Shown in pieces: positions 19,998 through 42,857 of a DNA stretch of 64,000 nucleotides (the stretch's first letter is position 1; the number at the start of each line of letters is the position of its first letter). Location: the NCBI GenBank assembly GCA_037043015.1, contig CM073328.1, forward strand, positions 13,489,495 to 13,553,494, in the 5' to 3' direction. Source of the stretch: Bryum argenteum. Lineage: Eukaryota; Streptophyta; Bryopsida; Bryales; Bryaceae. The translations under genes and the position numbers were made by a program. Below the pieces are notes generated by a model. It did not search any database, was not told where the DNA came from, and saw only the letters and a list, made by a program, of their open reading frames with translations.

Positions 19998-20123
19998 AGA
20001 AAAGAGATTAATTTAAAAAATAATGATAATAAAAAACAAATAAAAATCGTTAGAGGAGATGGTCTTTGCACATTCTTTTCATAGAGAGGCATTGGGGCCA
20101 AATAATTAATACCAATTCAAGAC

Positions 20124-20225
20124 CAGGGATGTCACAGCGTCCGGACGTCCGGACGTCCGGCAGGGGTCCGGGGACCGTCTGTGACTTAGAAAATCTGGTC
20201 GTTTTACCAAGGGTAAATGACCAAC
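20124..20225 (+). repeat. Left terminal inverted repeat and subterminal CCGGACGTC cluster of the giant hAT element
   Basis: CAGGGATGTCA is followed within 5 bp by overlapping TCCGGACGTCCGGACGTCCG, a self-complementary array. hAT transposases typically bind short repeated motifs just inside the ends; these motifs recur in the right subterminal region, so they are the best candidate binding sites. Confidence 0.8.
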
Positions 20226-20540
20226 GAGTGCGTTCATTGGTCGAACCACCCGTCGACCGTCCCCCCAACCTCTCGTCGGCCCGACCGACCGACCGGCCGG
20301 TAGCCGGCCGAGCGACCGCCGTCGGCCACGGGGCGACCGCCATCGGCCCGGCGATCGACGCCGCCGCCGTCCGCCGTCGGCTGGGCGACCGGCCGTCGGT
20401 CCGGCGCTCCGGCCGTCGGCCCGGCGGCCGACGTCGGCGGCGGCGACCGTCGGCCGGCCTCGGCGACCGTCCGTCGGCCTTGGCGACCGGCCGTCGGCCA
20501 TCGCGACCGACCCCTCGCATCCTGCGACCGCCGACGGCGG
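20226..20540. repeat. CpG-rich low-complexity block L (upstream of the hAT transposase)
   Basis: About 315 bp made of CGACCGxCGGCC-type words with extreme CpG density, abutting AT-richer sequence on both sides. It lies between the left terminus and the transposase promoter. Open frames on all strands here (Arg/Pro/Gly-rich) reflect composition only. Similar blocks occur at 27,685, 29,740, 38,095 and 42,285. Confidence 0.85.
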
Positions 20541-20618
20541 ATGGCCCTTTTGAAAGCATCCAATGGTTTAGGAGCATTTCAATTTCAAATTGCAACGGTC
20601 ATATTCGGAGTTGGATGG

Positions 20619-20626
20619 TATATAAG
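20619..20626 (+). promoter_or_regulatory. TATA box of the hAT transposase gene
   Basis: TATATAAG stands about 80 bp downstream of CpG block L and about 200 bp upstream of the transposase start at 20,825. The same arrangement (block, TATA, gene) is seen for the other three genes of this element. Confidence 0.6.
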
Positions 20627-20824
20627 AGAAGACACATTGAGTCTCATTTCACTTCCGAATTTTGAACACTTTCCAAGAGCTATGAGCCACATAATTCATT
20701 TTATGTGTACATTGCTTGGTAGGTATTGAGTTCGGAAGTGAGGATTTCGGTAAGGAACTCTTGCCAATTTTTTCCCGTCACGGTCCCACCATTATCAAGA
20801 CTTTGAGGCGTCCTATTTATCAAA

Positions 20825-22925
20825 ATGGGCCCCGCTCCACATGAGCCTTGGTTTAGAGACATCGAGAAGGAAGGCAAAGCGTGCGGGTCCTTCCTACAGT
20901 CTTTCACTATGTCGTGTAATTGTTTCAAGAAGAAGAGTCGGAATTTGAGTCATTATGGGTACGAGAAGATTCCTGGACATAGGGATTCGAGTTACGCCTT
21001 TGCCCGAAGTCGCCTAGGAAATTAGGCGATTATTTTTAAGATGTGGTGGGGAGTTCCCTCCATATAACGGAGAATTGGAACTATTTCTCGGTGAATGTTC
21101 TCTCACTCCATCCACGGACGTTCCAGGTGCTTCAAAACATGACATTCCTGAAACCCCTAGGAGTGACTCTTGTGTAGGGTCCTCGCTAGGCACCCCCATG
21201 AATTCAACAAATCTTTTGGTAGGGTCAACCTCTGCTTCTTCCATGCATATGAGGGGAATAAGGGATACTCGCCCGATGTTTGGATCTATGAAGCAAACGA
21301 AGCAATCTTCAATTGAAGCTACTTTTGCAGAAGCGGATAGGCGGGAGTTGGATAAACTCTGGGCGAAATTTTTTTACGAAGCAAATATACCATTCTCAAT
21401 AGCCCGCAATGATGCGTTCAAAGCTGCCGTGATGAAGACTGCGGGATTTCAAAAATTCTATGCTCCACCATCCTACCATGACATTCGGACAAGGTTGTTA
21501 GGAGAAGTAAAGACGGAGTTACAAAAGAAACTAGATAGTAGACTCTCTGAGAGCCTTCGGAAGTTTGGAGGAACTTTGACTATGGATGGATGGTCTTCTG
21601 TGACTAGTCGCCCTTTGGTGAATGCGATGCTCGTGACTCAAGCCGGAGAGCTTTTTCTTGGTCTTTGTCGATACTATCGCCAAGAAAAACAATGTGTACA
21701 TGTCAACTCTCATGTTGAAGTACATAGAAGAAGTTGGACCGGAGAACATTGTTCAAGTATGCACGACAATGCTTCAGAATGCTCAATGCCTCAAGAATAG
21801 TCCTTGAGAAATATCCGCACATTTTCATGCAAGGGTGTGCGACACATGCAATGGACTTGTTGTTGGAGGATTGGGGAAAGGTGGATGGATGGCGAATACT
21901 TTGGTCATGGCGAAGAAAATGGTCAAGTTTATCAAGAGGCGACAAATGCCCCTAGTCAGTGTTTCGTAAACACGAGGCGAAATTCAGACCTCCCGATGCC
22001 CGGAAAACAAGATTTGCTAGTCAATTCATAATGATAGATCGCTTGTTGGAGGTCAAGGAATCATTGGAGCAAGTTGTTGTCGACCCTATGTTCACAGCCT
22101 ATGCCTCGAAGAAGACGGTATCTGCTAGAGATAAGCTTATATTCTCACGTAAGGTCAAGAAGGTGGTGTTGAGCGATGAGTTTTGGAAGCAATGCAAAAG
22201 ACTACGGGATATGGTTGCCCCCGTGGTGTACGCTCTGAGAGAATTCGACGGCAAGGCTCCTAGTACGGGCAAGGCATGGCATATTATGCGTGATCTTGAG
22301 AGACATGTCCATACTTTGCACGCACCGCCCATCTCATTGGAACCACTTGAGGTGGCCACCGCAAAAGAGGAGTTTTACCATCGGAAACGGCTCATGACAA
22401 CGGATTTACATGGCGCGGCTGCACTTTTAAATCCTTATTTACTACACGACCAAGAGTTAGCTGACGATCCCGATCTTACAATCGCTTGCAAGCGTGTTTT
22501 ACAAAAATTATGTCCCGCGGAGGATTACGCAGACGCGTGGTGAGTGAATTTCTTGCGTTTGAGTAAGGGGTCCACCATTCCATGACATGTTGGAGCCTAA
22601 TACTCTAAAACTAGCTCCACATGCATGGTGGGAGTTTGAAGGTGCTTGTGCTAAGCTCCTCTCTCCAATTGCAAAGCGAATACTAGCACAGACCGTGTCC
22701 TCTTCAGCTTGCGAACGCAACTGGAGTAGCTACTCCTATGTTCACGACAAGAAACGGAATCGGTTACTACCGGGCGGTGATGACTTGGTCTACATATATT
22801 CCAACTCGAAATTGCTCGCGAATGATAAGTTGAGTGATGATGGGCGGTGGTATAGAGAGAACTTGGATTTAGAGGAAGACCAAGTACATGAGAATGATGA
22901 GGAAGTCATCGAGGACGAATCGTAG
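20825..22925 (+). pseudogene. hAT transposase (BED finger, DUF659-type catalytic core, hAT dimerisation domain), frameshifted
   Basis: It begins MGPAPHEPWFRDIEKEGKAC, a start typical of plant hAT proteins. A CNCFKKKSRNLS..GYEKIPG stretch corresponds to a BED-type zinc finger. At 21,340-21,660 the catalytic core reads WAKFFYEANIPFSIARND, RKFGGTLTMDGWSS and VNAMLVTQAGELFL. The next acidic motif (C..DNAS), then ASRIVLEKYPHIF and CATHAMDLLLEDWGK, occur at 21,680-21,890 in changing frames. The central helical region follows at 21,959-22,543. The C-terminal dimerisation motif (SSSACERNWSSYSYVH, KKRNRLLPG) is at 22,700-22,770. At least five frame changes break the gene, so no functional transposase is made. 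The domain order and the element's ends agree on the hAT superfamily. Confidence 0.9.
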
Positions 22926-23719
22926 TCGATGACAATGATGTTTTTGAATTCGGCGATGAAGATGATGATATGACTTTCTTCCCGCTTCAAATGATGAAGA
23001 TGCTCCAAATGTTCATGATGGTAATGGTGGTTTTATCGCTCATGGTCTTTCAAATGATGATCTAGATGATGAGCGGCCGTTAGCCCGGTTAATGACACAA
23101 GGCGGCATGGACAAATCAAATAACGTCCTACACCGTTATCGCTCTTGGTTTACGCCTGGAAAAGGAGGCGATAGATGCAAAGACCATCTGCGTGCAACAC
23201 AATCATGGGCACTATGAGCTCGATCCGGTCGCGGAGAATATTGCATCCGGTAGTAAGGATCAAGTATCCCGATCAATGTGCTACTCCGCGCTTTATTTCA
23301 ACCCTCTAGTACAAGGGTTACGACAACCTTGGAGAAATCGTCTAAGGGTTTAGTATCCCTTTCAAGAGCCAAATATGGGAGCATCTCTAGTGACTACGAT
23401 GTACCGTTGGGATGTATTTAAAGAATGCCAATGTTCTTCGTGATTGCCACGGGGTTCTGAAGACATGCTTGACACTTCCAAGTCGCATAAACGGAAATCG
23501 CAATGATTCCAATTGTTCCGCCTAAAAAAACCGAAGATCCTCGTTAATCACCCCGAATTTGATTCTTGGCATAAGTATGGGAATATACAATGTCCTGAGA
23601 ATAAACCCAAGATCAAAGAGGAGGTTCCAAGCGATTATGAATATGATCCTACGGGATCCAGTGGAGCTGAAGTGAAGGGAGATAGCGATTATGAGCAATC
23701 CTCTGGTCCTGATGAGTAG
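22926..23719 (+). pseudogene. Acidic tail and trailing fragments downstream of the hAT transposase
   Basis: After the dimerisation domain an Asp/Glu-rich region continues in broken frames (22,920-23,075), then pieces such as YRSWFTPGKGGDRCKDHLRA near 23,125 and AENIASGSKDQVSRSMCYSA near 23,235. A 68-codon open frame at 23,513-23,719 reads KILVNHPEFDSWHKYGN and ends in an acidic Tyr/Ser-rich tail (SDYEYDPTGSSGAEVKGDSD). This could be the original C-terminus of the transposase or a separate small gene. I do not recognise it. Confidence 0.4.
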
Positions 23720-24054: not shown

Positions 24055-24089
<35 letters not shown>

Positions 24090-24126: not shown

Positions 24127-27100
24127 TCAAACTGAAGATCCATCCGATTGGCCAATCTGAGCTACACTGCGAGTACGCAGTCTTTGACTTGGACGGGCAA
24201 TTCGACCGCCCTCTTCATACTCTCGATCCACCGCTGCGATTTCGCCTCTCAAACCTGCCTGCCAACTATCCTCCCCATCGTCGCCCGATTGCCTCTTCCG
24301 CTTTTTGCTCGGATCCACTTGTTTGTTACGTAAAATTTCCATGGCCTTCTCGATCTTTGCAATGACATCCTGTACAACACCTTCAAACTCATCCAATAAT
24401 AGAAGTTGTGTGTCTTTTGGGTTTAAAAGACATTCTCTCCAAAATGTAATGGCGTCATCGATACGCGTATCAAACTTCTTCACCGCATACCAATAAGAGA
24501 CCTCCACATCTTCAAAAGAATTTTCCGGTATCGAAATCCGGAATATTGCGGCCTCCTCCAATTTCGCGAGTACCAGAGCTCTTCCAATTGGAGTATGATC
24601 GTACTTCTTGTACTCTTCACCAAAGCCTGTTGAATCGGTTATTTCGTGCCACGAACCATCTTCTCCCTTTTCGACTTTCTTTGGAGGAAATCGAAAGAAA
24701 CGGTTGTGTTCGACGCTCCAATGCCCCCGAAATTACGACAAAACAACTCTCGTTGCTCATCACCTTCAATATTCCTCGCCCCGATCTCTATTTCGTAATC
24801 TCGTGTCATCCAAAATAATCGATCATGATCCCCACCAAATTGAATGGCTAGTTGGTGTTTTGATTCGGATGTACTCCGGTAAGAGCATTTCCCCAATCGA
24901 GTAGTTTAGAAATTTCTTCGGTATTGATCCAATGGAAGATTCCATCGGTTGAACTCGTGCTTGCTGGTGGCATAAGATCTCGAATGCCCATCATCTCGTA
25001 GAATCTCGTGCTAAATGGGGAGCGACATACCTGACATAACGATTTAGTCATCGATATCGGCATATGCAAGTAACATGAAAGTTATGGCCACATTGGCCTA
25101 ACGTGTATGCGCCCTCCGGACCAAAATTATGTAGGCACACCGCACATTTGTCTTTAAGTATTGCGGGAGGAGGGTCGCATGTGTTGATTACAATGCGAAA
25201 TGACTCTTGTAGGTGCGATGAGAATCTACTATACGGCGCCCATCCTTCCTCTATCTCCATAGTCCAATCAACATCATTGTTTCGTCCCATCTTAGAGTAG
25301 TTTGTACGCTCCATCATCTCTTCAATATCCCCCAAAAAGTGACCTCTATGGGGTCATATCGTTTTTTGTGGCCTTTCTTAAAAACTTCTCCAATGAAGCA
25401 TCTACAACTTCACGTGATTCCTTTGATGTAGATGCAATCGATTTCGATCTTCTTTTGCTCTCGATACCAAGCTCCTCTTATCTTGAAGTCGATGAACCCA
25501 TCCCAACCATGGTAGTATGCGTGGGTGAAGGTGGATTCTTTGCCTCTCGTAGCATCTACCGTTTTGAAGGTTTTCCGTAATGCCTCCAATTCAAATCCGC
25601 CTCATCTCTCTCTTTTACTTGTAGCCTCCAACTTCATTGAGCATGCTTTTGCTTCCCGCTCCAATTTCGCAATCAGAACATCTCTCTCCTTCTTGATCTT
25701 GCGAACTCCATTGCCCATGCTCGTTGTCGCTCAATCATGCATCATCTATCTCCTTTTGTGATATTAACTTCACTTCCCCCGAATTTCATCACCGTCATCA
25801 TCGTCTATTTCGATAATGGTTTTTCCCTTATCTTCTTTACCATCCTCTTCACTAACCTCTTTGAGAGGAGATAAATCCATGATATACGTCTTTCTCGTCT
25901 CTTCTTCACCATCCTCTTTACCACCCCCATCAATTTGTGAAAGAAAAAGACTATCAGAAGTCCCGATAATGGTCTTCCCCTTATCTTTATTACCATCCTT
26001 TTCACCATCCTCTTTTCCATCGTCTTTACCACCCGCATCACATTCTGGAACAACATGACTACATGAAGCCCCCTGAGTGTCATTCTGTGATGGAACAGAG
26101 GCTAATTGGTCATCCGCCCATGCTTCTACCGCATCCTTTTGGCGGATTGCTTCTTGGTACTTCGCCTCATACTTGCTAGCAGGACCTTGGCCAAACAACC
26201 GCAATTCCCTGTATAACTCGTCTAGGAGACGTTGCGTAATTTGTTTGTTGTTTCTCCTGTTTCACAATGATTAGCTCGATCTTCACTTGGTCCTTCAAGA
26301 GAGGTTGAAACCGATCTACGAGTACCTCAAAATTGTTGGCAGCTAGTAGAATGTTGGGCATGACACCTGCAAAAGTATGAGCCAGCCCCACAAATCTTGG
26401 AGCCATATCCGCAAGTATTTTTGACCCCATATTCAAGTAGTACCCTAGATCGGTTTATCTGCTCACCCGTAATCTCGTGCCAATGATTCCCTTCCAAACC
26501 GCCTCTTTATCTACCTTATTGCACCAATCTGCCAAGCTTTTTGCTTTTTTCATCCACTCATCCAATGTGTTATCCGGTACTTCATAAGACATATACCTCT
26601 CGAACATTGGCGCCGCACCCGAATCGAGATCCATGTCATCCATGGGAGAAGTTGGTGCTCCTGGTTTCCCGTGGTTCACTTGGCCCCGCCTCCTCCTCGG
26701 TGTTGGTACCGGGGTTTTCACGAGGTTCTTCAACTACGTTTGCACCTTCGAGCCTATCGCTTATAGTTGGTTCTACGATTGGGGCATCCGTAGCAACCAT
26801 ATTCCTTCCATCCTCCCGATGTGTCGTGGTTGTTGGAGGAGATTCCTTCTCCGCCGTCTCATGAGTTTTCCTCCTCAAATCTTTGCATAAGGCCTTTGTA
26901 GAATTTGATTACGGATCAAACCTATCGGGATATCCTTTTGATTTCTCCCGATTCAAGAGGATATGCACTACTCGCCGTGAATGTGCTCCAGTTCACCTTG
27001 CGCTTCAATATGAGCTCAAGATACACCATGCTCAAGAGCGTATATGAAAAATAACCCTTGCTCTTGGGACGAGTTCCAAACAATGCCACCCAAACTTCTT

Positions 27101-27474
27101 CAAAGACGATGAAGGAAGTGATCATCCTTGCATGTTTGAGGGTTGCAAGTAAAATTATTGGTATTAACTTTGTGACATTCTCGAGGCCAAAGTTTCCCAA
27201 TGTGATACATCTTCACATATTTCTTGCACGTCGCCATTCTCCAAGATTCCTCCGCTCATTAGCCCAACCGCTCTCGACTTTGATGGCCTCATTATCCAAG
27301 ATATCGTAGTGCAACTCATGTCTCGCTCCTTTTGGTTTCACTCTCTTTGACGGTGTCTCATCATAAAACCAACTCGGTCCCCACCAATCTGCGTTTGTGG
27401 TTTTTCGCCGCAGTGACCTCAAGGTTTGTTCGATCTGCACCTCCCTCCATGTTCGTGTTATCAATATCCGTCGC
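24127..27474 (-). pseudogene. Transposon-borne zinc-finger/RING-H2 protein gene, frameshifted
   Basis: Read on the minus strand it starts MATDIDNTNMEGGADRTNLE at 27,474. Near 27,230 a finger-like motif TCKKYVKMYHIGKLWPRE is followed by CKDDHF. Then come a globular region (27,120-26,930), Pro/Thr/Glu-rich linkers (26,870-26,640), helices (26,640-26,180) and a long Asp/Glu/Lys-rich stretch (26,080-25,770). A RING-H2 finger lies at 25,170-25,010: C-x2-C (CAVCLHNF), then CGHNFHVTC, then C-x2-C (CQVCRSPF). The rest (QLAIQFGGDHDRLFWMTRDY; KKFDTRIDDAITFWRE) ends at 24,127. Several frameshifts break it. RING-H2 domains recruit E2 enzymes for ubiquitin transfer; such a role here is inference. The N-terminal part is paralogous to the gene at 38,714. 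I know no named family. Confidence 0.7.
25010..25175 (-). other. RING-H2 finger region of the transposon-borne gene
   Basis: All eight metal ligands of a C3H2C3 RING can be read in order: two Cys in CAVC, one Cys and two His in CGHNFHVTC, its final Cys, and two Cys in CQVC. The last pair lies in a different reading frame from the rest, so the present copy is broken within the domain. The spacing between ligands is otherwise normal. Confidence 0.75.
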
Positions 27475-27664
27475 CATGAAGAGTAGGGAGTATTAAAAAT
27501 ACCCCAAAATATCCCAAGTACGCAAAAATTCGATCGCAGCCGCAAGTATCACGCCGACTTCCCCGCCACCACAAATGCAAAGACACGAGAAGCTAATGCC
27601 CACGGTTGCGGCTCGGTTGAGATGAATGAATACAAGGAGAAGTGAGGGGAATGAGGCCCCAAAG

Positions 27665-27674
27665 GCCTTTTATC
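27665..27674 (-). promoter_or_regulatory. TATA-like box of the zinc-finger/RING gene
   Basis: The minus strand reads GGATAAAAGG between CpG block 1 and the start codon at 27,474. The distance to the start (about 190 bp) is like that of the hAT gene's box. Confidence 0.5.
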
Positions 27675-27684
27675 CCCCTCCCTC

Positions 27685-27935
27685 CCAACCCTAGAGACCG
27701 GCCGCCGGGACGGCCGCTCGGCCAATCACGGCCGCGACCGTCTTGGCCGCCGGTCCGGCCCGCCGATCGATCGTGGGTCGGTCGATCCGGTCGACCGATC
27801 GGGGCCGGCCGATCGTGGCGGTCGTTCGGGCGGCGGTCGCCGCCGACCGATGTGGCCGGCCGATCGTGGCGCTGATGCGATCTTACGACCGATCTTGGCC
27901 GACCAACGCGCCGACCGATGCGGGCGTCACGCGTT
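27685..27935. repeat. CpG-rich low-complexity block 1
   Basis: About 250 bp of CCGGCCGATCG/GGTCGATCCGGTCG-type words, immediately upstream (minus strand) of the zinc-finger/RING gene's TATA-like box. A T-tract and an AAAT/TA microsatellite (27,966-28,032) follow on the other side. Confidence 0.85.
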
Positions 27936-29739
27936 TTTTTTTTAAAATTTTTTTCAATTTTTTTAAATATATAAATAAATAAATAAATAAATAAATATAT
28001 ATATATATATATATATATATTTATTTATATATTTAAAATTCAGAGATCTTACATAGCATAGGATCCTTTTTTATTTCGCAAAGTTTTTTGTTATTTGATT
28101 CTCAGTGATTATTACACACTGAAATAAGGAATCCTATGTTGATTTCTGAAATGCAATATATTATTTCTCTCGGATCCATCTTAACCCTTAAAAATCCACA
28201 ATGTTTCGGGAGCTTGAAATCCCAACACTGACCACTATGTACTATTTGGGGTACGTCCAATATTTTTGGAAATTATTGATAATTTCATCCGTAGGATCTT
28301 GAAGTAGACTACCATCGATAGTACCGTGATTATTTTTAACCGTTGGATCATCATTAGATGTGAGATCATAACGTTTAAAGTTGACTGTAATTTTTTTTTT
28401 CCTTCACTGTAAACGCCGAATCGGTGGCCGTGGTCGTTTAGGGGTTAACTCTAAATTTTAAGTTCATAACCATTTTCAGTGGACTCTTTAAAGTGTAAAT
28501 CTTCACAAATTAATAGATGTTTCAAACATAAGGCATTCATTTGGTTTCGAATCAATATCTTCCTTCTTTATTTTCCTTTTGTAATTTAATTGACCATTGG
28601 CTTCATGAATCAAACTTTTAACCACATGACCTACAACAGTAACTCTATTCCAATATTGCATGGTTGAGAATGTCAATTGGATCCTAATCTTAATGTAGGA
28701 CACTTATTTTGGAACTCATCCTAAAGAGTTATTCATACATCCTAAACCATAAACCACAAATCCTATTCACGAGTGATTTTATCCACTAGATACTCTAAAT
28801 GAAGAAGAGATGCCTATTTAAAATTTTATATTTTCAAAACAATCAATCGAAGAAAGAGTTATATGACTTATATTGGAAATTACTAGAAATTGTGAAGATT
28901 ATTTTTGTAATCTTTCAACAAGACTTTTGTGAAATAAACAAACATTTTGACTTGGGTCACTTTGGAATCAAGTAGTAAATTGTTCATGAACATATTTCCA
29001 AAAAAGAATTTCAAACAAAGACTAAATTTAATCGCCTTAATGGACTTCAAACGTAAAAATGATAGATGTACGTTGTAAATTTGGAATTTGGATATGCAAA
29101 TTTTACCACATGCACTTAGCGGTGTAAGGACCACCTAGTCAAAATGTAATAAAAATTATTACTTTTGACCTCTTCATATAAGTTTTTGCCAAATAGGAAA
29201 CCTCCACTTTGGTGTCCATGGATCTTTAGGGGTTAAGAACGAATATTTTAACAAAAATAAATTAAGGTGTACAATCAAAAGCATGGTCTTTAACTAATAA
29301 TAAGAATTGACCCCTTTGCCTTTGCTTTCCTTAAAAACAAGGGCATGAACTCTCAATGCCTTCACAAATGAGAAAATTGACCACACTATATTGATTGTTA
29401 AATGTTTACTTGATTCGAGCCAATTGGGCACAACAACTCAAAAAGTGAGTGTATTGGCGTGAAGATTTGCTCGCCTTAACTCCCCTTCAAGAAAGTCCAT
29501 TACAATGGATATATTTAAAGCCAAGAGTATCTTTGTCATAAAACATTCTCGCGTGGGACAAAAAGATATTCCCGACATTCTCTTGTCGAAAAATTCCCCA
29601 TCCATATTTAGACGCCACGTGGAGAATAAAGACTAAATATAGTAGTTTTGAAAATGCGGGTATGCAAGGCGAGGAAGTGATCGAAGTTGTGCAAACGGGA
29701 GTTTGGGGAGAGGCAAGAGGAGGAGGGGGAAGGGGGACG
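27936..29739. repeat. Internal tandem unit X, copy A
   Basis: This unit lies between CpG blocks 1 and 2 and is paralogous to copy B. Shared landmarks in order: T-tract, GCATAGGATCC, GGAATCCTATGTTGATTTC, TTTTAAGTTCATAACCATTT, CACATGAYCTACAA.AGTAAC, a CCTAAACC patch (28,741), AATGAAGAAG, AATAATAAGAATTG, AACTCAAAAAGTG, GTATCTTTGTCATAAAACAT, TTTAGACGCCACGTG, and AAGGCGAGGAAGTG. A TTAA MITE is inserted at 28,191. A right end of another TTAA element (CTTTAGGGGTTAA) lies at 29,224-29,236. Confidence 0.75.
28191..28448. mobile_element. piggyBac-like MITE with TTAA duplication, inserted in unit X copy A (258 bp)
   Basis: TTAA CCCTTAAAAATCC at the left and GGTCGTTTAGGGG TTAA at the right. The interior has the family words ATCCGTAGGATCTTGAAGTA, AACCGTTGGATCAT and GAGATCATAACGTTTAAAGT, also present near 32,370-32,470 in the coding piggyBac element. 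Copy B of unit X lacks the insertion at the corresponding place (ACTTTAAATTTTAAG near 30,118), a natural empty site. Confidence 0.85.
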
Positions 29740-29915
29740 CGGAAGGACCGACCGACCGGTCGCCCGGGGACGTGGTCGGTCCCACGCCCGGTCGGCGGTC
29801 GTCGGGCCGGCGCCAGGGCGGGCCGCAGGCCGGCCGCCGGACGCCGGGCCGATCGCCGGTCGCCGGGCCGGGCCGGACGCCGGGCCGGTCGCACGCCCGC
29901 CCCATGGCGGCCAAC
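29740..29915. repeat. CpG-rich low-complexity block 2
   Basis: About 175 bp of GGTCGCCGGGCCGG-type words. No gene start lies next to it; it seems to be the duplicated copy carried along with unit X. The preceding AGAGGAGGAGGGGGA and GGACGCGGAAGGA words match those before block 3 (38,065-38,100). Confidence 0.85.
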
Positions 29916-33079: not shown

Positions 33080-33300
33080 GATGATCTGACAAAAAGGCCC
33101 ACGCTTGCAACGACAAAGTGGATTTGACTGGCACCTTGGGGAGCCACATGAGGTGGCAGGAATTTCGTGATCTGGAAAGAGCCGAGCTGGAGGAGCTGGC
33201 CCGCCTTGCTGCCGTCCCTGGCCACCACTTGTACCGTGCAGTAGGCGCACTGATTGAAGCCCCCTTTGCGAAGTCGTTCTCCAGGGCACAAAATAGAATT
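33080..33300. other. GC-rich coding-like patch inside the piggyBac element
   Basis: This patch is clearly GC-richer than its AT-rich surroundings, with competing open frames on both strands. The minus strand reads NQCAYCTVQVV and FLPPHVAPQGASQ; the plus strand reads RWQEFRDLERAELEELARLA. The Cys-x2-Cys and the charged helix are suggestive, but I cannot decide a strand or a family. It could be a captured exon fragment. Confidence 0.25.
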
Positions 33301-33399
33301 CTCCTAACTGGAGAAAGGACTCCAGGGATTGCCGAACACCTACAAAATCACCAAAATTTATCAATTTACAAGAATTCTAATGTAACTAATAAAAAATAA

Positions 33400-33725
33400 A
33401 TTATCCATAAGCATAGTATTATTCATAGTATTATTACTAACTTTTGTATGTGGGGTAAGAAACAAAGCAAAGAATTATTCACAAGCAATATTCAAATTAT
33501 TGTGGTGTCATTTGTTTGTGGGGTAAGAAATAAAGCAAAGTATTATTCATAACTCAACTACTATTCATATTTGTTTGTGGGATAAAAAACATAGCAAAGT
33601 ATTATTCACAAGCAAAGTACTATTCATATTATTATTACTAACGTTTGTTTGTGGGGTTCAAATAAAGCAAAGTATTATTCACAAGGAAAGTACTATTATT
33701 CACAAGCAAAGTACTATATGCGCAA
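33400..33725. repeat. Degenerate minisatellite downstream of the piggyBac transposase
   Basis: Repeats of GCAAAGTATTATTCA(C/T)AAGC and TTTGTTTGTGGGGTAAGAAA alternate about five times. No coding potential. Confidence 0.7.
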
Positions 33726-33784
33726 AATGTGGGGTAACAAACTTGAGCTTCCTCTTTGTATGCAAAAAGAAATACTTACATTCA

Positions 33785-33952
33785 CTCACATATGGCGTTG
33801 GCGTCGTATGGCAATATCTCGTGTGCCACTTCTCAAAGCAACCTCGATTGAGACACATCCATTTGTCTCCACACTTCCGGCATAATAATGTGGTTCAAAT
33901 TTTTGGCAAACCACACACCGACGTCGTAATTTTGTATATGTGGGTACACAAA
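33785..33952 (-). pseudogene. Cysteine-rich C-terminal domain of the piggyBac transposase, out of frame
   Basis: Downstream of the transposase stop the minus strand reads RRRCVVCQKFEPHYY and then, in another frame, CRKCGDKWMCLNRGCF and EKWHTRYCH. The Cys/His spacing is that of the cross-brace zinc domain that ends many piggyBac transposases and binds the element's ends. At least two frame changes separate it from the catalytic part, one near 33,960 and one near 33,895. Either this copy lost the domain recently or these are assembly indels. Confidence 0.75.
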
Positions 33953-36427
33953 TCAATGGCGTGTTCCTTGCTCGAGGAATATCCGCGGGTGTGAATCTCT
34001 CATAGGCCACCCTTGAAGAAGGGCTTCACATAAGCCCTTCTTGAATTGAAGGTGTGTCATCGGCGTGCGGTTATATCGATAGTGTTTCACACACTCCAAA
34101 TAATATATATACATGTTGACAATCGAGACATCCAATAAGAAGAAAAAAATACGGTGCCACCACTTGTGGCTCCGTACTTGGCATGAATAGGATGCTCGGA
34201 GTTGATCGGCAACATCTACACCTCGCATGTGAGTTGTATATTCTTTCAAAATCGGGGATGTTAGAATCATTTCACGACTTGCACCATTTCGCCGAGGGAC
34301 CGTTACTACCTTCTCACATGGGGGTTGAATTGGCAAATAATGAGTGGAAATAAGAAGCACGGGCTTCTTATCCTTCCACATAACACATGATATCGTGCGG
34401 GTGTCATGCATTTTCCATAAAGTTGTGCCTTGAGGCACATTTTTGAAAGAATTGGTGTTTTTCAAATCTAAGGGAAGACCAACCCGGTTTGCCCTTATTG
34501 TCCCACATGCATACATTTCCCGTGATAAAAGAGTTGTGAAAAGTCCAAAACTAGTGAAGTAATTATCCATTGTCACGCAATGGCCTAAGTTCCAAAGGCC
34601 ATCCACTAACCTCATAACTACATTATGGGCCAATCGAGCATCGCCAAGAACAATATTAGGTTGTTCTATGGGAAGGGGGGCTACAATATTGTCTTTTCCA
34701 CAATAGATCTCGAAATTCCATACGAACTTTGAAATCGAGCATGCCAAACACCAAACCTTCAAGCCCCACTTTTGAGGCTTCTTAGGCATATATTGACGTA
34801 TCGGTGAATATGTCCCCTTATAGCGAATCATCATTTCATCAATGGTCAAATATTTTCCAAGAAACCATGCCTTTTTACATTGATCTCTCATAGCATTGAC
34901 TAACCATCTTGTTTGACCGATTTTGTCATAACCCGGGTCCCCTCTAGTTTGTCCTTCCATGTTTGTAAGATGGAGACATCTCCTAATGTCTTGAAATCGG
35001 GCCCGTGTAAATATATTTGAAATACTTGGGCATCCAAAGAGGTCATCACGCATCCAATATGTTCTTACATTAGGTTGAACCCTCAACCCCATATATATGG
35101 CTAAGGCCATAAATGCTTTGAGGCTCGAAATTGTCATATTCTCCCAAGTAGGACCACCTTTGGTATTTCCATGCTCATCTAAAGGAGCATTTGCATACCG
35201 ATTAGTTTCTTGAACAATAGTGGCCAACATGTGTGGAGTCCAAAAGAGGCCAAATAAATCCATAAAACTTGGCATACCACGATGATGACGAGAAGGACCC
35301 ATGGGTTTCCCCAAAAATGATATCGGCATTGGATTATACATAATACTTGGGTTTCCCCAAGTCTCATTCCTAAATTGCCACCTAATATCCTCTTGTTGAT
35401 GGGGTAACCCATCGTTACGATTATCTCCATCACTATCGTAGGCACTTTCAAAATTGGGTAAGTCCTCACTATCATTCCCACCCAAATCATCCCTCACACC
35501 ATTGCGTGTCATTCTCCTTCTTATTATATGTTCTTCCTCAACATCATCATCCCACTCCATATTATTATTACCGCCCTCAGTATCATTGCCATAGAATTCT
35601 CCAGGCCCAATACCAGTACTTCTCTCCCCAATAAAAATATTTGGCTGCAATGTGAATTGACCAATATTTTCTTCTGAAGTCACAACTACTGGTTGCCCTT
35701 GTAGCCCAAGCGTATGGCCTGTAAGGGGAAGGCCAGAAGGCGATGCACCCGCCACAGGAAGGCCCTGGTGCCCGGGTAAGCAGGCGTGCCGGCCGTTGCT
35801 GCTGTTCGGCTGGAGATGCCCCGCTGCGCTCGGCGCCGGACCCCAGCTGGCAGCCGACGCGCTTGACTCGCCGACGTGGCCCGACCTCGTGGCCGCGGCG
35901 CTGTGCCAGCCCGCAGTCCGCCGGCTTGAGTCCCATACTAGTCGCAACGCCGTTGCATCACCGCAATCTTGGTCGACGCCTAGCTGCAGCGCTGGTCCGT
36001 GCATCTCACCACTCCCGCTTGCTTCTTCGGGATCAGGTCCAGCATTGTAGATCTCACCACCTCTCTTCCGTCCTCTTCGGCCAAAGTTTATTGCTGCAAG
36101 CAAGACTTCAGGTGGCCAGAGGATATCCTCAAGACTTGCAGCTCTCTCCATACCACTATCATCTTCTCCTTCTTCATTACACAATTCTTCTGAGCTTGGG
36201 TAATACGCATGCACTGGAGATTGCGAATTCAAGTACTCGCCGTTGAAGCCAACATCTGTATCAGGGAAGGTCATGAGCTCAACTCCAGGTCCTAGATCTG
36301 GCAATTCTTGATGTTGAGGAGGTAATATTGCTTCAGGACTAGATGGTGGGCTTGGAGGAACCGTAGTTGGTTCCGGTTGTGTCTGTAGACGTGAACTCCT
36401 TCTCATTGGAATATTGTCCCACTCCAT
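33953..36427 (-). CDS. piggyBac transposase (DDE_Tnp_1_7 family), 824 codons
   Basis: This is a single open frame. The N-terminal ~370 residues are low-complexity and acidic (NDTEGGNNNMEWDDDVEEEH), with a GC-rich Ser/Ala/Gly part at about residues 165-240. The conserved domain starts near residue 375 (PSFMDLFGLFWTPHMLATIV). The catalytic aspartates expected for piggyBac can be read: D530 in LTIDEMMIRYKG, D621 in VTMDNYFTS, and D738/D741 in MRGVDVADQLR, with W-rich helices (RSHKWWHRIFFFLLD) after them. The usual C-terminal zinc domain is present but out of frame downstream. piggyBac transposases cut and paste DNA through hairpin intermediates without leaving footprints. I chose the ATG after an in-frame upstream stop; upstream splice signals exist but do not give a matching phase. 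Confidence 0.93.
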   Translation of the reverse strand: MEWDNIPMRRSSRLQTQPEPTTVPPSPPSSPEAILPPQHQELPDLGPGVELMTFPDTDVGFNGEYLNSQSPVHAYYPSSEELCNEEGEDDSGMERAASLEDILWPPEVLLAAINFGRRGRKRGGEIYNAGPDPEEASGSGEMHGPALQLGVDQDCGDATALRLVWDSSRRTAGWHSAAATRSGHVGESSASAASWGPAPSAAGHLQPNSSNGRHACLPGHQGLPVAGASPSGLPLTGHTLGLQGQPVVVTSEENIGQFTLQPNIFIGERSTGIGPGEFYGNDTEGGNNNMEWDDDVEEEHIIRRRMTRNGVRDDLGGNDSEDLPNFESAYDSDGDNRNDGLPHQQEDIRWQFRNETWGNPSIMYNPMPISFLGKPMGPSRHHRGMPSFMDLFGLFWTPHMLATIVQETNRYANAPLDEHGNTKGGPTWENMTISSLKAFMALAIYMGLRVQPNVRTYWMRDDLFGCPSISNIFTRARFQDIRRCLHLTNMEGQTRGDPGYDKIGQTRWLVNAMRDQCKKAWFLGKYLTIDEMMIRYKGTYSPIRQYMPKKPQKWGLKVWCLACSISKFVWNFEIYCGKDNIVAPLPIEQPNIVLGDARLAHNVVMRLVDGLWNLGHCVTMDNYFTSFGLFTTLLSREMYACGTIRANRVGLPLDLKNTNSFKNVPQGTTLWKMHDTRTISCVMWKDKKPVLLISTHYLPIQPPCEKVVTVPRRNGASREMILTSPILKEYTTHMRGVDVADQLRASYSCQVRSHKWWHRIFFFLLDVSIVNMYIYYLECVKHYRYNRTPMTHLQFKKGLCEALLQGWPMRDSHPRIFLEQGTRH

Positions 36428-36448
36428 CTGTATTCTCCAAGTTAGACA

Positions 36449-36889
36449 TTACTCATAACTCTCAACTATGAAATTTAGGTACATGTTACACAAGAGATAC
36501 TCACCTCCTTTGACTTCTTCCATGATCGACGTGGAGGCATTGCTTGTATCGGGCCAAGTAGATTTGACAATATCAAGAAATTCTTGCTCAAAAGCGTGTT
36601 GATCAACCCACCCTAGAATATGTGCGGCTTGCCTGTAGAAATGGTGTCGGAAATTATTTGCTTGTGGATTTCTTGGCCAAGCTTTGGACTTCTTACGAAC
36701 GCGTAAACTGCGCAAATGTTTTTGATCAAGCAGTGAAAGGAGGTCATGAATCTGATGTGCTCGAAGGTGTTTGCGTACAGCCCAGGAACGAAGGCGAGCT
36801 TCTGGATCGGCAGATGGAGGCGGCAATGTCGAAATAAGAAGTGGCTGCAAGTTTCCGACACTCACAACCGCAGTATTGGGTTCCTGCAT
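36449..36889 (-). CDS. Open frame upstream of the piggyBac transposase, function unknown
   Basis: 146 codons on the minus strand. A basic helical part (RSWAVRKHLRAHQIHDLLSL; SLRVRKKSKAWPRN) is followed by NNFRHHFYRQAAHILGWVDQ and an acidic end. A donor-like GGTGAGTAT sits near its 3' end (about 36,508) and an acceptor-like ATACAG lies just before the transposase ATG, suggesting an exon; the phases I can see do not join cleanly, so it may instead be a separate small gene. An acceptor-like ATATGCAG precedes GAACCC at its 5' end. I recognise no domain. Confidence 0.4.
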   Translation of the reverse strand: MQEPNTAVVSVGNLQPLLISTLPPPSADPEARLRSWAVRKHLRAHQIHDLLSLLDQKHLRSLRVRKKSKAWPRNPQANNFRHHFYRQAAHILGWVDQHAFEQEFLDIVKSTWPDTSNASTSIMEEVKGGEYLLCNMYLNFIVESYE

Positions 36890-36922
36890 ATGGTCATATT
36901 AGTCAGTTGATGTGATGTCAGT

Positions 36923-37417
36923 TTACCATGCAAGTTCCACATGCAAACCAAGTTCATGTTCATGTATTCGAACCCGTTGATGTGATCGCTCCTCGATCTG
37001 TGCAATCATCTGATCGCTCACTGGCGCATGGGCTGCCGAAGTTGGTGATGATCTGCAGGCTGCCGAACTTGATGCAGCGGCGACCTTGAAGCTGGACGGT
37101 CGGAGGCAGCTGCAGTACGCCTCCGAAGGAACTCGTCGACCTCCCTGGCACGTACAGTTCGCCGCCGATTCCTCTCGCTGAAGCTCAACCTCGGCGGCAA
37201 GTACAGTTGGACCACGAAGGAGCTGTTCGATCTCCCTGGCCGAAGACTCTACTGCGTAATCACCATTTTCAGTGCTCTGATCATTTTCGGTCCATACTGG
37301 CACCTCGATGAATCCTTCTCCTACTGTTGCACTCGCCTCTCTCGAATCGGTAGTTGCTAGTGAAATGATGGCAGCAGTCACAGGAACCCCGTCCAAAGAA
37401 TTTGCAAAACTAGCCAT
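36923..37417 (-). CDS. Second open frame upstream of the piggyBac transposase, function unknown
   Basis: 165 codons on the minus strand, starting MASFANSLDGVPVTAAIISL near the right end of the element. It is Ser/Ala/Glu-rich with scattered Cys (NCTCQGG, YCSCLR) and ends with a helical, charged segment (QMIAQIEERSHQRVRIHEHE). A donor-like GGTAAAC follows at about 36,930. It could be exon 1 of a spliced transposase or an accessory protein. There is no recognisable domain. Confidence 0.4.
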   Translation of the reverse strand: MASFANSLDGVPVTAAIISLATTDSREASATVGEGFIEVPVWTENDQSTENGDYAVESSAREIEQLLRGPTVLAAEVELQREESAANCTCQGGRRVPSEAYCSCLRPSSFKVAAASSSAACRSSPTSAAHAPVSDQMIAQIEERSHQRVRIHEHELGLHVELAW

Positions 37418-38094
37418 AATGGATTTTTGTTACTTTTGAAATATGCTTTGGATTTGATGTATGCTGTTTGTTGTTCCCAACATCTTTCCATGAGTTTCTC
37501 ATTCAAATTCTGAAATTTGAATCGCCCCATGTCAGTGTGTTCTCAGCCGCCAGTTTCACGAAGTTTGTAGTTATGACATGTATTTGGAGGGGGCGTCAAT
37601 CTTTGGCCAGTCCCAAAGCATTCAATTCTGCCGAATGTTGGGTCCTCCAAAACCCTGCTTGGAACCCCTGCCCCTCTGGAGTTTTCTCGAGTGACCCTCG
37701 CAACTGCCCCCATTTCCACCTTGTTCCTTAGTGGCCACAACAACAACCCGTTCTGCCCTTTCTCAACTCCAAATCAAAAATTTGCTCTACAAGGCACTAA
37801 AATTGGAATCTTACTTTGCAAATTTTACCACACACAATTACTATGTTTCCCGACACACACACCAAATTACAGCCCAAAACACCAAAATTTGACCTCTCAT
37901 CTAAGGTGCCCAAAACTGCAAAACGCCGATTCGGCTTTCCTGGGCCTTTAGGGGTTATTTAGACGCCACGTGAACCAAAGAGGCTAAATATGGAACTTTT
38001 GAAAATGCAGGCATGCAAGGCGAGGAAGTGTTCGAAGTTGTACAAACAAGGAGTTTTTGGGTGAGGGAAGAGGAGGAGGGGGAAGGGGAGACGC

Positions 38095-38560
38095 GGAAGG
38101 ATAGACGGACCGGTCGCCCGGGGGTCGGGGTCGGTCGCCGGCCCGGTCGCCGACCCGGTCGTCGGTCGCCGGCCCGGTCGTCGGTCGCCGGCCCGGTCGT
38201 CGGTCGCCGGCCCGGTCGCGCCGGTCTCCGGCCGGTCGTCGTCGCCCCCGGCCGCTGCGCCGATCTCCGCCCGGTCGCCGGTCGCCGGCCCGGTCGGGTG
38301 GCCGGATGCCGGTCGCCAGACCGGTCGACCGACCGGTCGCCGGTCGCCAGGCCGGTCGGCATCGGCTCGCCGGTCGGCCGGATCGGTCGGCCAGATCGCG
38401 GCCCGACGATCGACCGTCGGCCGCGCGCCATCGAGACGGCCCGTCGACCGATCGGACGTCGTCGACCGATCGGTCGTCTGCGCCGGTCGCCGGGCCGGAT
38501 CGCCGATTTGATTGGCTGCCGGCCGGATCGGACGGCCAAGGCGATTGGCCAATGGCGTCC
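38095..38560. repeat. CpG-rich low-complexity block 3
   Basis: About 465 bp, the longest block, built of GGTCGCCGGCCC-type words including four head-to-tail CCGGTCGTCGGTCGCCGGCC-like units at 38,150-38,220. It ends just upstream of the TATA box at 38,573. Open frames across it are compositional. Confidence 0.85.
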
Positions 38561-38572
38561 GATCCCGGTCGG

Positions 38573-38580
38573 CATAAATA
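38573..38580 (+). promoter_or_regulatory. TATA box (with CCAAT at 38,548) of the second zinc-finger gene
   Basis: CATAAATA follows GGCCAATGG by about 25 bp and lies 134 bp before the start codon at 38,714. Confidence 0.55.
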
Positions 38581-38713
38581 GAAGGGGAGGGGCTCATTGT
38601 CCTCACTCACAGTGAACGAGCCGTGCGTTGCGGCTTTTTTTTAAAGCCGCATCGATCGCAACTCGAGTCCGCGTGGGTCACCCACGCCCTCACCGCGCAT
38701 ACTTGTCATTGAA

Positions 38714-39960
38714 ATGGCGCCGAAGTTTTCACGTTCGAGGGTGAGGCCAAGTCTCCACGACCAAAGGGCGACCCTCCAAAAATGGATTGGGAAGCATGGA
38801 GTGACCCAAACTCGCATTGCGAGCCGGGTTGGCGTGAGAGGGCGGACATTTGGAATTGCACCATGTGCAAGAAGTACGTGAAGATGTACCACATCATGAA
38901 GTTATGGCCGCGGCACGAAGCGAGAAATATGGTCCTCGTCGTGAAGGCCCAGTGAAGAGTTGCAAGAGCGACCATTTTGCGATATATCACGAAGTCACAA
39001 TTGCGATTGGAATCAAGAACACAAGGCCGAAATTGATGTTGTATTCTACCATGGCCATGGTGTGGTGGTGAAATAGTCCCGCACAAGGACATTGACTGGA
39101 CCACCGCGATAGGTTTGAACGTGCATTTATTGGATCGCGAAGAACCGATTCATTCCCACAAATTGGATGGGACCAAGCGATTGTTATACTACGTATTGAA
39201 CGTTCACCGATATGGATGCCCAACTTCAACAACATGGAACTCCAAGGGCATATGGGGGCACTCAAAGAAGACTCAAACCATGACGATTGTCAAGCACCGG
39301 ATCCTTTGGCGCAGAAGTGAGGGGGTATTACCATGGAAACCACCAATTCGGTACTCCGGTGAGTTATATGCCACCTCATCAAAAAACACGTGGGAGCCGA
39401 ACGCGAGTACGGTAGAGGTGGATCTAGTTCAAACTACCCATCTCCAATGTATACAGGAGGTACACATGGTTTAGGAGGTGAGCGGGGTAGCGGATCCAAT
39501 GCTCAATGCAACTCAAGCCCAACTCATCCTATAAACCCATACAATCGTGGGAACCAATACGGTACAACATTCGGAAGTCCCGAGTCCGTAGGCCATCACA
39601 CCGAAGAAGAAACATACGAGTATGGAGGTCGAGTATGATAGAAGATCGGACATTGTTGGCTACACAAATTATGGATATGGTCGAATGCATACGGAAGTAA
39701 CGACATGCCTTCAAAGACCTTATCTATCTCCTGGGAGGACGAAGAGGCGAGGTACCAACAAGATCTCGCAACAAGCCACACTTCTAAGTCGGCAGGAATA
39801 CATTGAATGTACTTCGAGGCCGAAAGAAACTTTAGGCAAACGTACTTGTTTGGAGAATCTTCTCGAAGACCACCTTCTTACGGCGCTGCGCCAAGTCGTA
39901 AAGACGATGATGAAGAATCGGATTAAGAATGACAAATCATCATACATAGTGTCATTGTAG
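38714..39960 (+). pseudogene. Second transposon-borne zinc-finger protein gene, heavily frameshifted
   Basis: It starts MAPKF at 38,714; the next clear frame has GDPPKMDWEAWSDPNSHCEP and the finger-like CTMCKKYVKMYHIMKLWPRH at 38,858, then CKSDHFAIYHEV. This is clearly paralogous to the gene at 24,127-27,474 (TCKKYVKMYHIGKLWPRE; CKDDHF). Later parts are a globular segment (KDIDWTTAIGLNVHLLDREE), a Gly/Ser/Tyr-rich linker (REYGRGGSSSNYPSPMYTGG at 39,396) and a charged C-terminus (SISWEDEEARYQQD; YLFGESSRRPPSYG). No RING is visible. At least four frame changes make it non-functional. The finger resembles BED-type DNA-binding fingers of transposases, which is only a suggestion. Confidence 0.6.
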
Positions 39961-40636: not shown

Positions 40637-42154
40637 ATCATACTTGGTGCGATAATGATCATTTGGCACGGGCCAATGGAATGATTCCATGAAGCGGTTG
40701 ACAACGTGGGTCAACGTATACTTTGCATCAGCCACCATCTCCAAGTATTGGTCAAAAGCATTTGCCAAGTCTTGATTGCACCACCGGTCGGTCCCCCCCT
40801 GTACTTTGGCAATTCTCGTAGGCCTTCGACATGCTCTTCTTGAGGATGCGTTGTGCTATTCGTCGCCGTAGCAAACTCCTCCGGCGCAATCAAGAACGGG
40901 AATAATGTGAATGTCATCACTCCGTTTGTACAAGTACGCCACCCGAGGATCTACCCAATATCGTGCTTGTAGAGTATCAATTCGCTCTTGGGGTTTTGTA
41001 AACGTATACAAGGACCTCATTTTATCATCCATGCTCGTACTTAGCCCCCAATCACATACTCCAATATACACCCGTGATTCATCTTGAGGAAAGTGAAGAA
41101 GTATGTTCTCTGGAGACACATCGTTGTGGAGGTAGTTCAACCGGTGGACTTCACACATGATATGCACTAAAGCCCAAGCAAGCTCTGTTCGTTTTTTGCG
41201 GAACCGGACCAACTGCCAAGCTCGAATAAGCTCATCATCAGAATGAGGTGAGAGTCCGATCTCTCCATGAACATCATCTCCATATCTTGCATCAAGAGCC
41301 AACATCGATCGAATCGTGCCGCCATTCCACCAATACGTATAGCCTTGGAATTTATTTGCATGAATGGCAATAAAACGAATAACACCGGGATGTTGTATCC
41401 TCACAGCAAGCGCCTCATTCTGATGCTCCACCTTGGCCAAGTCTGGTCGTGTCACAGCATGGATGGGAGTTTTAGCAGCAAATTCCCAAAACTCTTCAAT
41501 ACCCGCAACCCCTCTTATGTGAACTTTGGAAATTGTGCCGTATCCTCCCCTTAGAGTCTTCTTCTCAAGCTCGATGATACGGGCCGTCATAGGAATTACC
41601 ACCAAATTATTCGTACGAACAAGCTCCATTAACCTTCCTTGTTCCGTGCGCCACCATCCTATGGAACCAACCCGGTTTGCATTATTGGAATACGGCTTCA
41701 TCGCTTCTTGAAAAGCCTCCGCCCTCAATACCACATCCCTGAACTCCTTATCACCCGCTCGAGTGGTTCTCTCATACCTCTTCAATATGGCGACAGCATT
41801 CCAGATAGCATCAACTAATCTATCCTCCATCCAGTCCGTAAAACCACGCTTATCAGTCTCCGTTCTCCACACCGGATCTTGGAGCGCTTCCATCATGAGG
41901 TCCATCATGTCGTCCTTGAATTTGGCCACAGCTTCCTCTTTGTATCTCACGTATTTGCTAAACAAACGTGGAAGACTGTTAGCCTCATAAAATCGCACGA
42001 TTACATTCTCCCGAAGAAAGTTCTTGCACTGATTGGATGGGTGCTCCCACTTCTCCAAATGTCTATGAACCCTTGGTCTCCGACCTCGATTCCCCCCACT
42101 ACCGCCAGCCCCATCTTTGGGCATCTTTGGGCATCTTTGTGAAAAAAAAAGCAA
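40637..42154 (-). pseudogene. Protein-kinase gene carried by the giant hAT element, C-lobe frameshifted
   Basis: A 432-codon open frame (42,154 to 40,856) has an N-terminal helical region without known domain (residues 35-190), then a kinase fold: glycine loop GGYGTISKV (203-211), the ATP-anchoring Lys in FAAKTP (K228), the helix-C Glu (E247), catalytic loop HNDVSPENILL (D345, N350), and DWG in place of DFG (D368). Near residue 400 RYWVDPRVAYL resembles the APE region. The C-lobe then changes frame: 40,920-40,711 continues FTLFPFLIAPEEFA, and the last 50 codons (DRWCNQDLANAFDQYLEMVA, to a TAG at about 40,637) lie in a third frame. Catalytic residues are intact, so the ancestor was probably an active kinase. 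Kinases are not part of known hAT machinery. I cannot name a subfamily. Confidence 0.8.
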
Positions 42155-42284
42155 AATCTCCCCCCTTACAAATGAAGAGACTTCTTTCCTCCGCAGGATA
42201 GTGAGCCAGTGGATGAAAATTAAAAAATTTCCAACCTACAGCTACTCCGCACCCTGATAACGAAGGAAAGAAGTGAGGAGAGTG

Positions 42285-42640
42285 GAGGCCGGTCGGCCTT
42301 ATATAGGCCGCGGTCGCATGGCCGACCGGCGACCTAAATCGACGGCCGGGCCGACCGGGCGCGACCGATCACCACCAAGACCGATCCGATGCCCTACCGA
42401 CCCGACCGATCACGCGCGGCCGACCCGACCGATCGGACGGCGATCGCCGACCGGCGGTCGCGCGGATCCGATCGACCGCCGACGGAGAGCGACCGACGGT
42501 CGGCCGACGCCGACGGGGCCCATCCGACGGCCGACCAACTCGACGACCGATCGGACGGCCGGGCGGCGTGGCGACCGATCCGACGCGTCGACGGGCCGGG
42601 TCGGCAAAACCAATCGGACGGTCCAGGCCGCCCGATTCAA
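42285..42640. repeat. CpG-rich low-complexity block R (upstream of the kinase gene)
   Basis: About 350 bp of CGACCGATC/CCGACGG-type words, adjoining the kinase promoter on one side and the right subterminal region on the other. It mirrors block L at the left end. Confidence 0.85.
42298..42305 (-). promoter_or_regulatory. TATA box of the kinase gene
   Basis: The minus strand reads TATATAAG between CpG block R and the kinase start, about 145 bp upstream of the ATG at 42,154. Confidence 0.6.
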
Positions 42641-42744
42641 TCTAACGGTAATCACCTACCCTCACAACACTATTTGAACGGCTACGATGCGATTTTCAAT
42701 ACGATCTGATGGTTAAAAAATTTATTACATGCATAGTAATTCCG

Positions 42745-42849
42745 ATTTACCCCCCGGACGGACGTCCGGACGGTCCTGGACGGACGTCCGGACTGACGGA
42801 CGTCCGTCCGTCCAAAAAAACCCAAAAGACGTCCGGATTGACATCCCTG
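42745..42849 (-). repeat. Right terminal inverted repeat and subterminal GACGTCCGG cluster of the giant hAT element
   Basis: Four GGACGTCCG(G/T) words between 42,757 and 42,840 precede TGACATCCCTG, the exact complement of the left end. The mirror-image motif arrangement at both ends supports a single element and suggests binding sites for its transposase. Confidence 0.8.
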
Positions 42850-42857
42850 TTCAAGAC

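Follow-up and report, generated by a model that had tools for sequence, protein, structure and literature searches.

A 64,000-nucleotide stretch of the genome of the moss Bryum argenteum (GCA_037043015.1, contig CM073328.1, positions 13,489,495 to 13,553,494; hereafter the window) contains a hAT-like transposon at 20124-42849 which, as we read it with high confidence, is a copy of a giant unit of about 17 kb with four selected genes in two convergent pairs, the window copy having decayed and later been enlarged by a piggyBac-like insertion. The genes are referred to here as A (a hAT transposase), B (a RING-finger protein), C (a protein with a Cys/His-containing domain) and D (a protein kinase). 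hAT elements are, in the textbook view, small, one-gene, cut-and-paste transposons.

The ends of the element in the window are exact. The left end is an 11-bp terminal inverted repeat (TIR; CAGGGATGTCA, 20124-20134, plus strand) and the right end is its reverse complement (TGACATCCCTG, 42839-42849, minus strand), these being the only exact copies of the 11-mer in the 64 kb, and the 8-bp target site duplication TTCAAGAC abuts each side (20116-20123 and 42850-42857) in exactly matching copies. The left-end TIR sequence CAGGGATG fits the pattern [T/C]AGNGNNG given for plant hATs (PMC6027215). The 8-mer TTCAAGAC is by itself not rare (five in the window vs 3.2 expected), so the weight of the duplication lies in its exact placement and in the other copies of the family rather than in its rarity. 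Just inside the ends are mirrored clusters of the palindrome GGACGTCC, two on the left (20143-20158) and three on the right (42760-42805), which are candidate transposase-binding sites. These five are the only exact occurrences in the window, and in 11 of the 11 copies available in full the motif is restricted to the ends, with two to three in the first 120 bp, one to three in the last 180 bp and none elsewhere (the nested insertion was excluded from the count in the window copy, and the list for the whole window adds no further site). Sites of the CCGGACGTC type with at most one mismatch number 25 in the window vs 5.1 expected, a count of at least 25 being reached in none of 100 shuffles. These positions and motif counts confirm the exact ends, the 8-bp duplication and the mirrored motif clusters reported in an earlier note on this DNA.

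The same ends are found together throughout the genome from which the window comes (258.8 Mb in 25 contigs). When up to three mismatches are allowed, short end patterns occur at 238 left and 181 right places, with none for reversed control patterns, and longer queries from the left (300 bp) and right (250 bp) ends were scored for 40 candidates each, of 238 and 288 respectively. Pairing was carried out on 110 left places (100 listed of the 238 plus ten from the longer query) and 89 right places (80 exact, seven of the 20 listed with one mismatch and two from the longer query), and gave 57 pairs correct in order and orientation within 60 kb, vs two pairs on the wrong strand and one in the wrong order. 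Median spacing of the 57 is 17,253 bp, with 34 pairs at 16-18 kb and 39 at 13.9-18.8 kb. Exact 8-bp duplications flank the window copy and each of the ten further copies retrieved in full (11/11), while of ten additional pairs, 21.7-51.7 kb apart and read at their ends, seven have exact duplications, one matches at seven of eight positions and two have no match, giving 18 exact duplications in the 21 pairs tested. The full copies come from ten of the 14 pairs first seen; three others of these were read at their ends (two exact, one unmatched), and C10:15998583, also one of the 14, is outside the duplication count. The 18 exact duplications show a base preference, with T at position 2 in 12 (P = 9e-4) and A at position 7 in 14 (P = 3e-5); Ac-type hATs have the target preference nTnnnnAn. 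Chance pairing of ends is rejected by the 57 ordered pairs, set against controls of two and one, and by the exact duplications. The earlier note had argued against such pairing from the one duplication that it saw and had proposed a family of giant elements, and the check that it suggested, a genome search for paired ends flanked by 8-bp duplications, upholds both, with the ends co-occurring at similar spacing genome-wide. What the window holds is a single unit of transposition of the hAT type, one member of a large family.

Empty sites, which had also been suggested as a check, exist in the same genome. Joined flanks of six of the 11 copies were compared with it (40 of 1302 candidates scored), and uninterrupted relatives were found for three (copies E1, E4 and E6), such sites being findable because those copies sit within other repeats. 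All six of the empty sites that were retrieved carry the 8-bp target once, the two for E4 having a 5-bp gap about 10 bp past the junction. Another copy (E8, C1:11662601-11680400) is inserted in the GC-rich island ahead of gene D of another member of the family, and its joined flanks cross the junction in alignment to each of the ten other copies; many gaps and the repetitive sequence there leave the breakpoint blurred.

Comparison among the copies also establishes the size of the unit. The block 32262-37954 of the window copy is missing from all ten other copies, in each of which the TTAT site is unbroken, and it is a nested piggyBac-like element of 5,693 bp (minus strand), foreign to the hAT unit, with ends CCCCTAAAGGCCCA and TGGGCCTTTAGGGG and an open reading frame (ORF) for a piggyBac-type transposase (33953-36427, minus strand; Pfam DDE_Tnp_1_7, E = 1e-75). 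Its left target duplication, identified by comparison with the other copies, is TTAT (32258-32261, the site spanning 32258-37958), whereas the usual piggyBac target is TTAA. The window copy minus this insertion measures 17,029 bp and is collinear with the other copies; pairwise identity among the 11 is 93.5-97.3%, and 16,924 columns of the alignment are occupied in six or more of them. The hAT unit is therefore about 17.0 kb long, and the 22.7 kb previously given as the size of the element is this unit plus the 5.7-kb later insertion. Two copies depart locally from the common structure: E4 (C7:11301001-11319800) is missing most of gene B and has a private insertion of 4.7 kb that adds three GC-rich islands, and gene D of E10 shows a gap of 0.3 kb. 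The piggyBac gene was considered as cargo and rejected as a later insertion, since 10 of the 10 other copies are without it. The opposite possibility, that a hAT of 3-5 kb was split by later insertions and that the large size is secondary, had been put forward in the earlier note among the conditions that would refute a giant unit. One nested 5.7-kb insertion in the window copy is what speaks for it, but a 17-kb core that is common to 11 copies, collinear in independent copies once the insertion is removed, and whose genes are under selection, leads us to reject it as exceedingly improbable.

Gene A (20807-23418, plus strand; frame broken in the window copy) encodes a hAT transposase in which DUF659 and the C-terminal hAT dimerisation region both exceed their Pfam cut-offs. 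In copy E9 the matches are to PF05699 (Dimer_Tnp_hAT) at 3.4e-12 and PF04937 (DUF659) at 7e-19, the latter reaching 2e-34 in copy E5 and 1.2e-9 on the window's own ORF. The best match among solved structures is the Hermes transposase, weakly (E = 0.0054). The strings DGWS, TDNA, CATH and CERNWS occur in this order, pooled over two copies, and may correspond to the catalytic Asp, Asp and Glu and the CxxH motif of hAT transposases. NCBIfam gave no match for A, B or C. A non-autonomous element of 3,246 bp (C1:8091502-8094747) shares the ends of the giant unit, apart from two mismatches in 22 on the right, and has the exact duplication AGCATATG on either side of an interior unrelated to the 17-kb core, so the ends are probably sufficient to be moved by a transposase supplied elsewhere. 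A 90% identical relative of this smaller element, at C1:30.50 Mb, has the right end and no recognised left end.

Within the unit, A (plus strand) converges with B (minus strand), and C (plus strand) with D (minus strand). The four genes in two convergent pairs described earlier were all located; what that description had not set apart is a fifth gene, the foreign transposase of the nested element. The arrangement recurs across the genome, where tblastn scored 87 places for B out of 919 candidates, 99 for D out of 1088, 103 for C out of 1480 and 86 for A out of 1128; rows that were second pieces of a place already counted are not in these totals (four of 91 for B, four of 103 for D, four of 107 for C, one of 87 for A). 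At 44 of the 86 places scored for A, a convergent B lies within 6 kb, and neither of the other arrangements occurs (0 and 0). A convergent D accompanies C at 52 of 103 places (alternatives 0 and 0), and at 45 of the 87 B places a C lies within 14 kb in the divergent orientation expected (alternatives 1 and 1). The 11 full copies show one gene set in one order, with the set kept in all except E4.

Gene B (24130-27650, minus strand, by tblastn match range; frame broken in the window copy) encodes a protein of about 1000 amino acids with a RING finger (Pfam, 5.9e-9). Gene C (38637-39902, plus strand), in which the window copy has no plus-strand open frame of 120 amino acids, encodes some 400-450 amino acids with a conserved Cys/His-containing N-terminal domain, followed by a low-complexity tail that varies. 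Homologues at E <= 0.001 number 34, three of them with 90%, 78% and 69% identity and the remainder with 33-59%, and none is named beyond 'hypothetical protein'. A stretch in the C tail resembling the ubiquitin-interacting motif (UIM) was noticed by eye, and the Pfam scan did not report UIM. The C profile matches the start of B at 120 bits, and thus B and C share an N-terminal domain of about 140 amino acids. This common domain suggests an older block duplicated within the element, and so lends something to the idea that a hAT transposon fused with another mobile element or a virus that supplied B, C and D. Such fusions are known, Teratorn being a piggyBac-like transposon fused with a herpesvirus (PMC10175614). 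No viral hallmark domain was found among the ORFs scanned with Pfam, however, and scans of viral contigs with D and with B found no relative, and we regard a fusion of this kind as improbable.

Gene D (40640-42124, minus strand, with a gene match at 42058-40640) encodes a protein kinase of about 490 amino acids, open in the window copy down to a stop at 40856, below full length. It has 65 homologues, of which the best, at 57% identity, belongs to the moss Ceratodon purpureus; another Ceratodon cluster matching the kinase comprises 126 member sequences, and its locus name contains V. These matches, together with the plant-type telomere repeat, point to a moss as host. One homologue filed in a Bacilli metagenome bin, on a 2.9-kb contig, was taken as contamination. 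All 25 members of the D alignment, including the window's D, match Pkinase at E <= 0.001, with invariant Lys, Glu, Asn-Asp, Asn and Asp-Trp positions; when the alignment is widened to 36 members, the catalytic Asp is nearly, not fully, invariant. A search of NCBIfam with a D relative gave two matches far under the cut-off.

The ratio of nonsynonymous to synonymous substitution (dN/dS) between the unit and diverged copies is low in frame for every gene: 0.44-0.46 for B (three copies), 0.33-0.42 for C (four copies), 0.34-0.42 for D (five copies) and 0.33-0.34 for A (one copy, two stretches), vs 0.71-1.39 in shifted frames over all four. The diverged copies were three of the 87 places for B, four of the 103 for C, three of the 99 plus two further loci for D, and one for A. 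Among the 11 close copies the ratios are 0.50 and 0.48 for A (vs 0.56-0.78 in shifted frames), 0.50 for D in the window frame (vs 0.65 and 0.75), 0.63 for C in the E5 frame (vs 0.82 and 0.87) and 0.75 for B (vs 0.67 and 0.97), the value for B being no better than those of non-coding controls (0.67-1.08). Two close-copy rows, C from E4 and D from E7, began out of frame, and their lowest values fall in 'shifted' frames. Judged by the ratios against diverged copies, all four genes are preserved by purifying selection during multiplication of the family, and since decay of old copies raises dN/dS, selection is probably stronger in the moving lineage than the ratios indicate. Because all four appear to be selected, B, C and D seem to be functional components of the element. 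They could instead be passengers, host genes captured and amplified as in Pack-type elements or in the fungal hAT that carries histone H3; kinases and RING proteins are common among host genes, and gene capture by a hAT has been published (PMC6710886). Passengers would be expected to decay at shifted-frame rates, which is not what the in-frame ratios of 0.33-0.46 indicate, and the order of the genes is conserved among the scored places and their set retained in 10 of the 11 full copies. We therefore consider capture of passive host genes very improbable.

Several observations weigh against a giant hAT with four selected genes. Two of the 21 tested pairs have no matching duplication, and the flanks of E2, E3 and E5 gave no junction-crossing match among the matches listed. 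About half of the scored gene places are without a partner among the matches listed, although those missing may have decayed or have gone unscored. Not one of the four genes keeps an intact frame in the window copy. Close-copy dN/dS is weak, and for B not below that of the shifted frames, while selection on A has a single diverged copy as its basis. As for the proteins, the window's D scores under the curated Pfam cut-off for kinases (23.4 vs 31.7 bits), a D profile run against solved structures gave no matches, and a protein search with B found no homologue at E <= 0.001 among the 8000 candidates scored.

For the giant multi-gene hAT, we infer how the parts may work together. From what is known of hATs, the product of A would bind the inverted ends and the GGACGTCC arrays, excise the unit by cut-and-paste and reinsert it with an 8-bp stagger. 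Each gene would be transcribed from its own GC-rich island. B, through ubiquitin ligation, and D, through phosphorylation, would modify host proteins, with C as a partner. That B, C and D act in this way on the host, lifting silencing, timing transposition or otherwise permitting it, is a proposal that we favour only tentatively, and at somewhat less than even odds. The accessory genes may alternatively aid the transposase directly, in the movement of long DNA or in cell-cycle timing by phosphorylation rather than against silencing, as might be fitting for a large element with a selected gene set. The 3,246-bp element, whose ends are shared but whose interior is unrelated, has nevertheless moved as well, leaving an exact duplication (B, C and D could have been supplied in trans), and we think direct assistance rather unlikely. 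A broader and more speculative proposal than host modification, which we hold with slightly less confidence, is of a moss lineage of giant multi-gene hATs with a virus-like toolkit (a RING ligase, paired zinc-domain proteins and an active kinase) overriding host control, kept with the transposase since before the moss families split, with the older copies amassed on a single large chromosome that may be a sex chromosome without recombination.

Five GC-rich islands occupy matching places in 11 of the 11 copies, four of them at or just upstream of gene starts. These four lie ahead of gene A (20124-20623, plus strand), where the island is a probable promoter region, at the start of gene B (27574-27923, minus strand), ahead of gene C (38021-38670, plus strand) and ahead of gene D (42221-42670, minus strand). 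The fifth (29624-29973) stands in the central part, in which no gene was found, and overlaps an incomplete second copy of the sequence preceding C. This duplicate (28248-29899 vs 31673-38250; 73-81% identity) includes part of the GC-rich island ahead of C and is perhaps a relic of an earlier duplication of genes, for instance the one behind B and C. A telomere-type CCCTAAA tract (30624-30693), likewise mid-element where no gene was found, is present in 11 of the 11 copies.

The family is unevenly distributed in the genome. The largest contig, C1 (44.1 Mb, 17% of the genome), holds 54 of the 87 scored B places. For D it holds six of the 22 places that are 94% or more identical to the query and 44 of the 52 below 88%; the corresponding counts are 26 of 40 and 19 of 23 for C, and 16 of 28 and 22 of 30 for A. 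C and A thus have a high share on C1 at every age, and an age trend is clear for D only. The pile-up could reflect retention on a low-recombining, possibly sex, chromosome.

With respect to known systems, the element shares with plant hATs of the Ac/Ds type the 8-bp duplications, a short TIR of the form [T/C]AGNGNNG, a transposase with DUF659 and hAT dimerisation regions, and a non-autonomous derivative with the same ends. Its 8-bp duplication, TIR pattern, DUF659 plus dimerisation region and nTnnnnAn-type target bias are all features of hAT membership. In size it stands apart. The longest of 276 plant hAT sequences in one survey, Gulliver of Chlamydomonas, measures 7,144 bp (PMC6027215), compared with about 17 kb and four genes in the moss element, so that the unit is more than twice as long as the longest plant hAT in the surveyed literature. 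The same survey reported no hAT homologues in Physcomitrella (PMC6027215). Titles and abstract openings in the wider literature contained no report of such an element, in a search outside which lay most subscription papers and all preprints, so its absence there is unproven, and the main text of a 2019 review of giant eukaryotic transposons, as available, does not contain the whole word 'hAT' (PMC6431247). That review describes the Burro giant retrotransposons of planarians, which are likewise giant and carry extra domains linked to ubiquitination (PMC6431247), but Burro is a Gypsy-like long terminal repeat retrotransposon, unlike the cut-and-paste DNA transposon described here.

Fungi provide the closest likenesses in the carriage of additional genes. 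A hAT of Pseudocercospora fijiensis with a captured histone H3 shares with the moss element its extra coding sequence and many copies; it averages about 9.5 kb, and its captured sequence has been inactivated by repeat-induced point mutation (PMC6710886), in contrast to the selection signal on the extra genes of the moss element. ToxhAT, or ToxTA, is a transposon of 14 kb with extra genes that was formerly called a hAT. It has TA duplications and is non-autonomous and single copy, unlike the moss element, and its authors now place it as likely Tc1/mariner (PMC12506042), so that an apparent fungal precedent is no longer deemed a hAT by those who described it. Starships are also giant units with genes besides the transposase. 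Their captain is a DUF3435 tyrosine recombinase (PMC12506042), whereas the moss element has DUF659/hAT at its left end, and the Pfam scans of its longer ORFs listed no DUF3435. The hallmarks of Polinton/Maverick elements, a protein-primed DNA polymerase B and a retroviral-like integrase, were likewise not found in the ORFs scanned with Pfam. Starship cargo varies between copies. No such variation was seen in the moss element, in which the gene set is collinear in 10 of the 11 copies, E4 being without most of B and having its private 4.7-kb insertion. With one gene set in one order, and selection on it, the genes behave as fixed parts rather than variable cargo, and the Starship-like carrier of accessory genes that the earlier note had envisaged does not agree with a set and order fixed across 11 full copies.

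Taken together, the element is a giant, multi-gene hAT with apparently selected accessory genes, within the hAT superfamily and lacking the Starship and Polinton hallmarks that were looked for. A superfamily known for small elements can thus hold a multi-gene unit, in the form of a 17-kb family whose three further genes seem to have been preserved through many rounds of movement, and the question of why such an element keeps a ubiquitin-ligase-like protein and a kinase becomes testable. Annotations of moss genomes may count such genes as host genes, as the 126-member Ceratodon cluster matching the kinase suggests. Compared with the plant hATs whose ends, target duplications and transposase it shares, the Bryum element differs in its length of about 17 kb and in the three genes that appear to have travelled with its transposase as fixed parts.

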